A stretch of DNA of 64,000 nucleotides from NCBI RefSeq assembly GCF_005938745.2, contig NZ_VCBX02000001.1, positions 639,501 through 703,500 on the forward strand, in the 5' to 3' direction. The notes beneath the pieces are model-generated. The model saw only the letters and a list, made by a program, of their open reading frames with translations, made no database searches and was not told the DNA's origin. Positions within the stretch are counted from its first letter, which is position 1. Every line of letters begins with the position of its first letter. This DNA is from Rhodococcus sp. KBS0724 (GTDB taxonomy: Bacteria > Actinomycetota > Actinomycetes > Mycobacteriales > Mycobacteriaceae). The position numbers were made by a program, and so were the translations under genes. This document shows positions 9,254 through 12,517 of this stretch, piece by piece.

Positions 9254-10069
9254 GTGCTGCTCACGGTCGACGTGCGGAACACCAACATCGTTCTGGGATT
9301 GTTCTCCGGGGTCGGTGAGTATTCGAAGTTGTTGCAGGACTGGCGGATGCGCACCGACTCGAGGATGACGGCTGACGAGTTGGCGTTGACGTTCCGCGGG
9401 CTGCTGGGGCAGCACGTCGACCAGATCACCGGCGTTGCGGCGTTGTCGACCGTACCGTCTGTGCTGCGTGAGATCCGCGTGATGCTCGAGCGGTACTGGG
9501 GACATGTCCCGCACGTTGTCGTCGAACCAGGCGTGCGAACCGGGGTGCCGCTCCTGGTCGACAATCCCAAAGAGGTGGGCGCCGACAGGATAGTGAACAG
9601 CCTTGCTGCGCACTATCTTTACGAGGGTCCGTGCATCGTCGTCGATTTCGGAACGTCGACGTGTATCGACGTCGTATCCGCTAAGGGCGAGTTCCTCGGC
9701 GGCTGTATCGCACCGGGGCTCGAGATCTCGACCGACGCGTTGGCGTCGCAGTCTGCCGCATTGCGGAAAGTGGAGTTGGTGCGCCCACGTTCGGTGGTCG
9801 GAAAGAACACCGTGGAGTGCATGCAGTCCGGAGCGGTGTTCGGCTTCGCCGGCCTTGTCGACGGATTGGTACGACGCGTTCGTGAAGAGTTGCCGGAGTT
9901 CGGCGGCTCGGACGTCGCGGTTATCGCCACGGGAGACAGTGCGCCGCTGATCATTCCGGAATCTGCCACTATCGAGCACCTCGAGCGGGATCTGACACTC
10001 GAGGGTTTGCGGTTGGTGTTCGAGCGCAATCAGGCGCGTCGGGGATCGGGCCGTCGGCCGATAGCGTGA
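9254..10069 (+). CDS. coaX: type III pantothenate kinase
   Basis: Phosphorylates pantothenate in the first step of coenzyme A synthesis. The 271-aa protein carries the ASKHA-fold signatures of type III kinases: [16 protein letters not shown] at the N terminus, [22 protein letters not shown] and GGCIAPGL. It completes a compact CoA precursor operon with panC and panD. The GTG start at 9254 follows panD directly. Confidence 0.96.
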
Positions 10070-10141
10070 CGTTGCATGTGTGACGCGCATGTGTGACCAA
10101 GGAAATTCACTCCACAGGTTTCGCGATCGCAGAAGTTGTGC

Positions 10142-10154
10142 CACAATGGTCAAC
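10142..10154 (+). promoter_or_regulatory. putative -10 element for a leaderless transcript
   Basis: The hexamer CACAAT at 10142-10147 lies 7 nt before the GTG at 10155. That is the spacing expected if transcription starts on the first base of the uORF. No convincing -35 is visible. Confidence 0.5.
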
Positions 10155-10196
10155 GTGAATCGCTGCATGAGTGCTCAGGAGTGTTGTCGAGGCTGA
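10155..10196 (+). CDS. leaderless Cys-rich uORF, putative cysteine-responsive attenuator
   Basis: A 13-codon ORF reading MNRCMSAQECCRG followed by TGA. It has three Cys codons, two of them adjacent (TGT TGT) just before the stop. It starts 7 nt after a -10-like hexamer and so is probably translated without a leader. It ends 40 nt before the cysteine dioxygenase start. Mycobacteria have leaderless polycysteine uORFs that slow ribosomes when cysteine is scarce and control sulfur genes; this one fits that pattern in form and in target. An in-frame ATG at 10146 would add three residues (16 aa) if the transcript starts earlier. Confidence 0.6.
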   Translation: MNRCMSAQECCRG

Positions 10197-10236
10197 CCGC
10201 TGCCTTGACCAATTCACATCTCCTTGGAGCTAGCTC

Positions 10237-10872
10237 GTGCTACCCACATATTCTGCAGATCTCTCTGTTTTGACCCCTACGCTTGCATCTGGTCGCGGTG
10301 TTTCCGCAGGTAATGGTGCTAATCGCGGTTCGTCGGGACGGCGCCAGAACCGGGCTTCACTGCCCACTCGCTTGCGTCCGGCCGACCTCCTGCGCCTCAC
10401 TGACGAGGGTGCAAACGGTGTTCTCGACGGGCGTTTCGATCACCTCATTCCCGAGGCGTTCCCAACGCTCGAGCGGTGGTCAACCCGCCTGTATGCCGAC
10501 GACGACGTCGACGTCTGGCTCATTAGTTGGGTTCCGGAACGCAACACCGAATTGCATGACCACGCAGGTTCGTTCGGTGCACTGACCGTTCTCAGTGGTT
10601 CGCTCACCGAATATCGTTGGGCCGGCGAAGAATTGGTGGAGCGCCAGCTCGACGCCGGCGATCAGGCGGCATTCCAGCTCGGGTGGGTTCACGACGTTGT
10701 CTGGACGCAGCCGCAGCCCCATTCTCCGATCGAAATCAGCTCTGATTCACCAACTTTGAGCATCCATGCCTACTCGCCGCCCTTGACGGCAATGTCCTAC
10801 TACGAAGTGACGGACAACAACACACTTCGACGCACACGTACCGAGCTGACCGACCAGCCCGAGGGAGCCTGA
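10237..10872 (+). CDS. cysteine dioxygenase family protein
   Basis: Cupin-fold non-haem iron enzyme expected to oxidise cysteine to cysteine sulfinate. It is 211 aa. The iron ligands appear as His107 and His109 in ELHDHAGSFGAL and His177 in LSIHAYSPP, with Tyr179 close by. The first 40 residues are low-complexity and probably disordered. The GTG start at 10237 has TTGGAG 8 nt upstream; this site lies in a short CTC-CUUG-GAG hairpin that could mask it. A rhodanese gene follows 3 nt after the stop. Confidence 0.85.
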   Translation: MLPTYSADLSVLTPTLASGRGVSAGNGANRGSSGRRQNRASLPTRLRPADLLRLTDEGANGVLDGRFDHLIPEAFPTLERWSTRLYADDDVDVWLISWVPERNTELHDHAGSFGALTVLSGSLTEYRWAGEELVERQLDAGDQAAFQLGWVHDVVWTQPQPHSPIEISSDSPTLSIHAYSPPLTAMSYYEVTDNNTLRRTRTELTDQPEGA

Positions 10873-10875
10873 AAA

Positions 10876-11298
10876 ATGACTATCGACCAGATGCTTGACG
10901 ACGCCCGTTCGCAGATCGATCGTATGTACGTCTTTTCACTCACCGAGGCTTTCCATCGCGGAGCTATTTTTGTCGATATCCGCCCGCAGGCCCAGCGCGC
11001 GATCGAGGGAACCCTTCCCGGCGCCCTCGCGATCGAGCGGAACGTGCTCGAGTGGCGTCTCGATCCCACCAGCAGCGCGCACCTCGCGCTCGCGACAGAC
11101 CACGACGTCGAGTGGGTCATCATTTGCTCCGAGGGCTACACCTCCAGCCTGGCCGCTGCGTCGTTGCAGCAGCTCGGCCTGCGCAACGCCACCGACCTGG
11201 TTGGCGGTTACAAGGCGATCAAGGCTGCAGGCTTGCTCGGTGCTCTCAGTGGAGTGCGTCATTGCACCCGTGAGTTGGCGGCGGTTTCCGCTCACTGA
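10876..11298 (+). CDS. rhodanese-like domain protein
   Basis: A single-domain sulfurtransferase-like protein of 140 aa. The active-site loop CSEGYTSS has the catalytic Cys at residue 84, preceded by the usual VIIC strand, with the conserved VDIRP motif near residue 33. It begins 3 nt after the cysteine dioxygenase gene, so the two are co-transcribed. The pair suggests handling of excess cysteine or sulfane sulfur; that role is inferred. Confidence 0.88.
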   Translation: MTIDQMLDDARSQIDRMYVFSLTEAFHRGAIFVDIRPQAQRAIEGTLPGALAIERNVLEWRLDPTSSAHLALATDHDVEWVIICSEGYTSSLAAASLQQLGLRNATDLVGGYKAIKAAGLLGALSGVRHCTRELAAVSAH

Positions 11299-11303
11299 CG
11301 TGC

Positions 11304-11355
11304 TCTGCTGTGCGCCTTTGTTAACCGCGGGCGGTTAACAAAGGCGCACAGCAGA
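11304..11355. repeat. long perfect inverted repeat, copy 1 (bidirectional terminator)
   Basis: Two 25-nt arms at 11304-11328 and 11331-11355 are perfectly complementary around a GG centre; the arm contains tgcgcctttgttaaccgc. It lies between convergent genes and can end transcripts from both sides. Almost the same element occurs at 51395-51444, also between convergent genes. Confidence 0.9.
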
Positions 11356-11356
11356 A

Positions 11357-12517
11357 TCAGGGAATCGAGATCGACGGGTCGGTGAACTCGTTGGTGAACA
11401 GTTGTTGCGGGGTCATCGTCGAGGGGACGGTGTTACCCGTGTCCGCGAGGATTGTCGTCAACTCTGCGACGTTGCTGCTCGTTCGCGCTTCGTCGTAGAC
11501 ACCGAATGATCCGTTGTCCTCGTTGGCGAGTAGTCCCTTCTCGCGGAGGAGGTCAGCGCTGAATGTTGCTTCACCGATGGTGTAGGGCGAATAGGTCTGA
11601 TCCTGAGAGACGACGTCCACAATGACTTTGTTGGTGGCGTCAGGCGACGTGATGTAGTCGACGCCGGCCTGCTGGATGATCGGGACGAGCTTGTCGAGGC
11701 ACGGTGAGTATTCGGTGAGTTTGTCCGCGCGGACCGACATGTTGGAGGCGTAGATGTCGTAACCGGCATCTTTGATAAGTCCGAACGACACGGGCTTGCC
11801 CCAGGCTGGTATCTCGTTTTCGTAGAGATAAGGGTCCGAGTTGGCGAAACCCTGTTGAACTATTGTCGGGTCAGCGACGAATCGGGAGGGTCCGCCGTCG
11901 AAACTGGTGTCGATCTGCGACCGATCGAGTAGTCCCTGTGCCACCATCCACTGCGGAAATATCTGATCCTTGGACACCACTACGGTGGCGTCGGACTTAC
12001 CGATGTCTTCGAGAGATTTCCAGTCCGAGTGTGTTGCTGGATCCCACATCAGAATGGCGGGGCTGTACTTCAAGGTCGGGGTGACACCAACCACTGGTTG
12101 GCTGGAGGCTGCCACGATCAACTGGTCGCCGTGCACTACGCCGAGCATCACGGTGTCGTCCACGTAGAGCTGTGAGGTCACCGACTGGAATCCGATAGCG
12201 GGGCCTCCTGATTTGAGTGTGATGTCCACTCCGGTGTCCTTGCCGCCCGCGACGAGCGGTCCTGTGACGGACTTGTCCATCTCGTCGACCCGGTAGCCAG
12301 GGCCGAGCATCGTGAACAAGGCGCCCATATCCGCCTGTGGTTGCCATTGCAGTTGAATGCCGATGTTGTCCGGACACACGTCGGAGAGATTTTGGGCTTG
12401 CGCGGCAAGTTCGATCGATTCCGATTCGGCGGGCTCTTCCGATCCGTAGGCGCACGAGGTCAGGCCTAGCGACGTAAAAGCGACGAGCATGATTCCGACA
12501 TGGCGTAGTGATTTCAC
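11357..12517 (-). CDS. orphan ABC-type substrate-binding lipoprotein (NMT1/SsuA-like)
   Basis: A 386-aa lipoprotein. The signal peptide ends in LTSC near residue 22, followed by a periplasmic-binding fold. The segment NIGIQLQWQPQADMGALFTM resembles the start of NMT1/THI5 and nitrate/sulfonate/taurine binding proteins. The GTG start is preceded by AGGAGA. No permease or ATPase gene is nearby, so it must share a transporter or act alone. It faces a 2-oxoglutarate-type oxygenase across a 378-bp AT-rich gap. The ligand is unknown; a sulfur or nitrogen compound is plausible. Confidence 0.8.
   Translation of the reverse strand: MKSLRHVGIMLVAFTSLGLTSCAYGSEEPAESESIELAAQAQNLSDVCPDNIGIQLQWQPQADMGALFTMLGPGYRVDEMDKSVTGPLVAGGKDTGVDITLKSGGPAIGFQSVTSQLYVDDTVMLGVVHGDQLIVAASSQPVVGVTPTLKYSPAILMWDPATHSDWKSLEDIGKSDATVVVSKDQIFPQWMVAQGLLDRSQIDTSFDGGPSRFVADPTIVQQGFANSDPYLYENEIPAWGKPVSFGLIKDAGYDIYASNMSVRADKLTEYSPCLDKLVPIIQQAGVDYITSPDATNKVIVDVVSQDQTYSPYTIGEATFSADLLREKGLLANEDNGSFGVYDEARTSSNVAELTTILADTGNTVPSTMTPQQLFTNEFTDPSISIP

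Follow-up and report, generated by a model that had tools for sequence, protein, structure and literature searches.

What does a very short open reading frame with adjacent cysteine codons do in front of a gene for a thiol dioxygenase, and would it turn this gene on when cysteine is plentiful or when it is scarce? The question is raised by a locus in the 64,000-nucleotide stretch of Rhodococcus sp. KBS0724 DNA analyzed here (contig NZ_VCBX02000001.1, positions 639,501 to 703,500 of the forward strand; hereafter, the window), in which an upstream open reading frame (uORF) lies between coaX, encoding type III pantothenate kinase, and the dioxygenase gene.

Architecture of the locus

The initial annotation of this DNA had described a 13-codon ORF with adjacent Cys codons just before its stop, a -10-like hexamer 7 nt upstream and a 40-nt gap to the next gene, and on direct reading all of this is correct. 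The hexamer is separated from the uORF start by the 7-nt spacer GGTCAAC (10148-10154), and the 40 nt between the uORF stop and the dioxygenase start occupy positions 10197-10236. The next genes after the uORF belong to sulfur metabolism (PF05995, then PF00581). The features of the locus are as follows.

10142-10147, + strand: -10-like hexamer CACAAT with TGC before it (extended -10); sequence reading and comparison of 111 uORFs
10155-10196, + strand: leaderless-type uORF of 13 codons, GTG start (10155-10157), MNRCMSAQECCRG, stop TGA (10194-10196); direct reading and upstream-region comparison
10164-10166, + strand: further Cys codon TGC (codon 4); Cys at residue 4 in 47/79 of the 13-aa ECCRG peptides
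10165-10171, + strand: helix III 5' arm GCATGAG, within the uORF; its partner is 10234-10240, around the dioxygenase start codon
10175-10180, + strand: helix II 5' arm TCAGGA (uORF codons 7-9); its partner is 10222-10227, CCTTGG, with 5/6 positions pairing in the window
10182-10187, + strand: adjacent Cys codons TGT TGT (codons 10-11); TGT TGT in 104/111 uORFs
10186-10193, + strand: helix I 5' arm GTCGAGGC, from the second paired Cys codon to the Gly codon; its partner is 10202-10209
10202-10209, + strand: helix I 3' arm GCCTTGAC, immediately beyond the uORF stop; folding and covariation comparison
10222-10229, + strand: helix II 3' arm (10222-10227) and Shine-Dalgarno GGAG (10226-10229); helix II count
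10234-10240, + strand: helix III 3' arm CTCGTGC, including the start codon GTG (10237-10239); A1 alignment
10237-10872, + strand: cysteine-dioxygenase-family thiol dioxygenase (PF05995), 211 aa, without Cys; domain match, GTG start at 10237
10876-11298, + strand: single-domain rhodanese (PF00581), 140 aa, second gene of the presumed operon; domain match

Conservation of the uORF

The dioxygenase query was matched in 160 of 251 genomes of the family (E 1e-20) and, with paralogues counted, in 42 of 61 relatives (E 0.001), the enzyme of the closest relative (G008) being 97% identical to that of the window. Upstream regions were compared in 142 cases, which came from 135 of the 160 dioxygenase-bearing family genomes, four further relatives and three from outside the family; a uORF was counted when it had Cys-Cys within its last 8 residues and a hexamer xAxxxT 5-8 nt before its ATG or GTG. 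Such a uORF preceded the dioxygenase in 111 of the 142 regions, as against 1/142 when the reverse strand of these stretches was scanned as a control, which supports the earlier proposal that a leaderless-type uORF with Cys codons likely regulates the operon. The window's genus (g1) scored 23/23, and the alignment that the initial annotation had suggested as a check revealed that the frame and the Cys pair are kept in all 23 regions; the loss of both in close relatives retaining the operon, which it had named as the refuting outcome, was therefore not found. The score was likewise complete in g6 (20/20), g44 (Nocardia, 15/15) and g10 (11/11) and in the smaller genera g32 (7/7), g43 (6/6), g37 (4/4) and g41 (2/2), while g50 gave 13/14, g9 4/13 and the 11 genera represented by a single genome 6/11. 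By the strict criteria no Cys-Cys uORF was found in g40 or g51 (0/8 each). Under looser rules a uORF with a single Cys close to its end is present in 8/8 regions of g40 (e.g., MIHHPTSRRCRS), and g51 still gave no Cys uORF (0/8).

The distance from hexamer to start codon, which bears on the position of the transcript 5' end, was 7 nt in 103 and 6 nt in 8 of the 111 uORFs (a distance of 6-7 nt being preferred in the choice of the start), and TG preceded the hexamer, with one base between, in 93/111. The prevailing spelling of the Cys pair is opposite to the preference in the 45 long ORFs of the window, where TGC and TGT occur in the ratio 161:53. In front of this gene, uORFs that differ by genus or family (endings MCCC, RCCR, RRCRS and FDExC) also retain Cys codons close to the stop.

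Outside the family, in other families of the order, a different, longer uORF was seen before the dioxygenase at 9 of 27 loci (L030, L371-L374, L379, L381, L387 and L395) in the looser scan, a count made without a control strand; its endings are FDExC/FDQxC-like or RRADxFDExC-like, and no uORF of this kind was found at the 10 loci of f15. A second genomic copy of the window's uORF was also sought: 30 of the 90 matches to TGYTGYCGNNNNTRA were examined, and only the one described here looked leaderless. No NCBIfam match was found for the upstream-extended uORF peptide, and no Rfam match over 9800-10600.

Structure of the leader RNA

When the leader is folded freely, codons of the uORF pair with the start site of the dioxygenase gene. 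Helix I joins the end of the uORF to bases directly 3' of its stop, helix II joins TCAGGA or CCAGGA to a stretch ending in the GG of the Shine-Dalgarno (SD) sequence, and helix III joins GCATGAG to CTCGTGC around the dioxygenase start codon. This three-part structure, with compensatory changes, is conserved in the leaders. In alignment A1 (49 distinct leaders; identical ones were removed, L025 and L171 were left out as too long, and L099 was added), 95.8% of the cells are paired compared to 32-43% in slid controls, sequences being counted despite kinship, and 24 cells are changed on both sides, which was equalled in 0/500 shuffles with kinship ignored. Two other measures are unexceptional in A1, namely 4 pairs with both-side change (reached by 47/500 shuffles) and 13 pair types (reached by 498/500). 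In alignment A2 (20 leaders of Nocardia and g43), the paired share is 94.4%, or 34-44% when slid (kinship ignored), and a fourth hairpin is present. Helix II was counted by script because the SD-to-start spacing varies; in the 88 of 106 leaders with GAGTGTTGT, 471 of 528 cells were paired, and 167-349 when slid (kinship ignored). The uORF base facing position 1 of the start codon is C in 8/23 sequences starting with GTG versus 0/26 of those starting with ATG (Fisher 0.001, kinship ignored).

The extra conserved hairpin of A2 occupies columns 62-91, after helix I; its arms resemble those of helix I, so that alternative pairings are possible.

The initial annotation had proposed a smaller element, a CUC-CUUG-GAG hairpin, as the mask of the dioxygenase ribosome-binding site. 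This hairpin can form in the window, but with three pairs and partial conservation it is not the main mask: among the 49 leaders of A1 it is Watson-Crick paired in 11, formed with G-U pairs in 23 more and absent from 15. The site of this hairpin is also sequestered by the long fold.

Modelled effect of a stalled ribosome

Stalling was modelled in 106 of the 111 uORFs, those with an assignable downstream start (L030, L147, L165, L170 and L193 are missing). In the window leader, the cost of opening the start site, from SD to start codon, was 15.1 kcal/mol for the free RNA, 7.3 and 7.2 with the first and second codon of the Cys pair in the A site and 12.0 with the stop codon there; the respective means for the 106 leaders were 12.3 (free), 7.3 (first Cys codon), 7.2 (second) and 8.8 (stop). 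Upon stalling, the cost was lower by at least 3 kcal/mol in 75 leaders and by at least 1 in 88, and higher by at least 1 in 4; in g9, g50, g8 and g38 the mean drops by no more than 0.6. In the window, placing the ribosome anywhere from codon 3 to codon 12 opens the site to much the same extent, and the specificity would consequently rest on stalling at Cys.

The mean unpaired probability of the five SD bases falls on stalling, from 0.31 to 0.23 (by more than 0.05 in 48 of the 106 leaders, with a rise in 26), and the unpaired probability of the stretch from the SD to just past the start codon rises from 0.35 to 0.45. In our judgement, the opening cost is the better guide of the model to the behavior of the site, since the freed SD can form weak local pairs, the small CUC-CUUG-GAG hairpin included. 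As the structure masks the start site and a stall lowers the opening cost, the predicted sense of the switch is the ordinary one, i.e., ON at cysteine shortage; the reversed sense expected in the initial annotation is not supported by these calculations, the SD unpaired probability being the one measure that disagrees.

Masking was also computed for uORFs recoded synonymously with the real Cys codons kept (43 leaders, 40 trials per leader). Recoded uORFs matched the real masking in at most 2/40 trials for 26 of the 43 leaders and in 4/40 for the window leader; in 11/43 they masked as well in at least 10/40 trials, these being all four leaders of g9, two of the four of g50, L127, L157, L171, L187 and L116.

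The target operon

The dioxygenase matches PF05995 with E 1.4e-13 and 51.2 bits (cut-off 23), and the rhodanese is over the cut-off of PF00581. The His/Tyr signature of the dioxygenase is retained, with H107 in 169/169, H109 in 167/168 and H177 together with Y179 in 163/163 sequences. In rat cysteine dioxygenase, Arg60 binds the carboxylate of cysteine. The alignment of the window enzyme with 3eqe starts at 3eqe residue 62, opposite Arg84; when it is extended without gaps, residue 60 faces Ser82, near which lie Arg80 and Arg84. Most sequences have Ala or Ser at position 82, and Arg80 and Arg84 are present in 168/169. The closest solved structures by sequence, 8qfl-8qfr (E about 2e-12), were deposited as 'Cysteine dioxygenase' and presumably represent ergothioneine dioxygenase. 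The substrate of this putative cysteine oxidase may be other than cysteine.

Of 162 distinct dioxygenase sequences, which are related to one another and were aligned over at least 70% of the query, 147 contain no Cys in the aligned part. The share of Cys among the residues is 0.07% in the dioxygenase, 1.13% in CoaX and 1.04% in the rhodanese, and that of Met is 0.82% in the dioxygenase versus 2.11% in CoaX; in g51, which lacks the uORF, the dioxygenase has one Cys in 5/8 cases. In R. qingshengii, a low sulfur content is a mark of enzymes expressed in starvation (PMC8557817). The near-absence of Cys would suit expression of the dioxygenase in starvation, although a thiol oxidase may also avoid Cys for other reasons.

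The leader is found without the dioxygenase as well. A leader model (R1), built from A1 and searched at E 0.1 with strict filters (the building sequences match by construction), gave one match each in 28 of 61 genomes. Three R1-positive genomes (G007, G011 and G027) have no dioxygenase match at E 0.001 in the genome, and in them a short stretch resembling the dioxygenase N-terminus runs directly into the rhodanese. Among the 80 named leader loci used, out of 119 stretches found, the dioxygenase is listed downstream in 71 and the rhodanese in 73; the seven loci without rhodanese all have less than 650 bases of downstream sequence, and two without dioxygenase are also cut short. At seven of the 80 loci the rhodanese follows with no dioxygenase between it and the leader, an absence at the locus (R. 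gordoniae, R. aetherivorans, R. zopfii, R. yananensis, two further Rhodococcus and one MAG, the latter apparently G027). Altogether, nine genomes have the leader directly before the rhodanese, and in the model these leaders retain both masking and unmasking (9.9-16.6 falling to 4.5-7.7). Cysteine breakdown is therefore not the sole target. The active-site loop of the rhodanese is devoid of Cys in 7/9 of these genomes.

Rhodanese-like proteins with a Cys-less active-site loop directly after the leader were noted in rhodococci at L250, L257, L258, L259, L262, L268 and L283. After the rhodanese of the window and before a minus-strand ORF lies a perfect 25-nt inverted repeat with a 2-nt gap (11304-11355), probably a two-way terminator.

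Known systems and published expression data

Cys-rich leaderless uORFs before cysA2, Rv0485 and nirA of mycobacteria are described by Shell 2015 (PMC4633059), and polycysteine attenuation is credited to Canestrari 2020 in later papers (PMC9031893, PMC9094748, PMC13236596). In common with the mycobacterial attenuators, the window locus has a short ORF of leaderless type that stands first in a sulfur operon and carries contiguous Cys codons towards its end. The structure described by Canestrari reportedly conceals the next start until a stalled ribosome opens it, and six loci are said to be of this type. The features of polycysteine attenuators that could be checked by computation are found here, namely the Cys codons TGT TGT, sulfur genes next to them, computed masking and opening by a stall (the latter two not in g9, g50, g8 and g38), and on this basis of sequence and modelling we file the locus as one of the mycobacterial polycysteine-attenuator kind. 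It differs from them in having 13 codons with one adjacent Cys pair and a thiol dioxygenase as the first gene, and in that the masking is by the uORF's own codons, with compensatory changes. In a literature search that covered few subscription papers, no description of a cysteine uORF preceding a cysteine dioxygenase gene was found.

As regards expression, 12 sulfur genes of Gordonia NB4-1Y, a cysteine dioxygenase and four sulfurtransferases among them, had higher levels on three organosulfur sources than they had on sulfate (PMC7661421). In R. qingshengii, the PspE rhodanese peg751 was more than 4-fold down on dibenzothiophene (PMC8557817). Mapping by gene order leaves the identity of peg751 with the operon's rhodanese ambiguous; if it is the same rhodanese, this record counts against the predicted sense.

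Proposed mechanism and alternative explanations

We consider it likely that the locus is a cysteine-responsive translational attenuator, which turns on the dioxygenase and the rhodanese when Cys-tRNA is short. What computation shows directly is that the uORF is conserved, that the structure has compensatory changes and that the model predicts unmasking; to these we join, by inference, the transcript start, the stalling, the response to cysteine and the sense in the cell. Transcription would start at GTG10155, and ribosomes would load on the leaderless 13-codon uORF. At plentiful Cys-tRNA they would clear it fast, letting the leader fold into the three-part hairpin that pairs the SD and the start codon of the dioxygenase with uORF codons, and the operon would be translated poorly. 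At short Cys-tRNA a ribosome would halt on the Cys codons, cover the 5' arms and free the start site, and the dioxygenase and the rhodanese would be made. Making a putative cysteine oxidase at cysteine shortage is physiologically odd, which speaks against this model. We suggest tentatively, and with rather more doubt than belief, that the two genes form a sulfur-salvage operon switched on via the stalling leader at cysteine exhaustion, and not a cysteine overflow valve, the Cys-free dioxygenase oxidizing another or stored thiol and freeing sulfite for reassimilation.

The opposite switch, in which plentiful cysteine would turn the operon on and the dioxygenase would burn the surplus, appears unlikely. 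A stall could bring it about if the 3' arm of helix I, once freed, masked the start, or a terminating ribosome could hand over to the next start. It matches the textbook role of cysteine dioxygenase, and the fall in SD unpaired probability in 48 of the 106 leaders (with a rise in 26) agrees with it, as would the higher level of peg751 on sulfate, if that is the same rhodanese (PMC8557817). It is opposed by the drop of at least 3 in the opening cost of the whole site in 75/106 leaders, the near-absence of Cys from the dioxygenase, the retention of the leader where the dioxygenase is missing and the rise of the Gordonia dioxygenase on poor sulfur sources (PMC7661421).

Two further explanations keep the leader and change what it does. 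Transcription attenuation, in which stalling would decide whether a terminator or an antiterminator forms in the leader, would find some support in the second hairpin with similar arms after helix I in Nocardia and g43; we regard it as quite improbable, given that no intrinsic-terminator-like site is present in the leader, the sole one in 10050-11450 being at 11299, after the rhodanese, and that the masked element is the start codon itself. Least probable in our estimation is that the masking structure alone fixes the peptide, the Cys codons sensing nothing and the uORF merely bringing ribosomes to the next gene. The TGT TGT and CAG GAG codons do fall within or next to paired stretches and could thus be kept by RNA pairing alone, and Cys at position 4 is unconserved (47/79), but unlike uORFs (MCCC, RCCR, RRCRS, FDExC) still have Cys codons near the stop.

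If the attenuator model is right, much of a bacterial family controls a thiol dioxygenase by a switch that is triggered when cysteine runs short, which contradicts the usual view of this enzyme as a means of cysteine disposal and offers a direct way of searching for its real substrate. It would be a known kind of switch with an unexpected target. Since the bases that code for the sensor peptide also mask the next start codon, the leader would moreover be a natural system in which attenuation can be tested cleanly, with compensatory changes that occur naturally across genera.

Another polycysteine uORF in the genome

The same genome contains another leaderless-type polycysteine uORF, MQTRHELMLTRRRAVDLCRLGGCCCSCC (L066/L068; position 249 of the L066 reverse complement). 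Like the window's uORF, it has a hexamer (TAAACT) 7 nt before a GTG and a Cys-rich end, and a two-domain rhodanese is encoded about 0.8 kb downstream. It differs in having 28 codons and six Cys, with another ORF before the rhodanese, and in being unmasked only slightly when modelled in the same way (7.1 free, 5.8-6.1 stalled).
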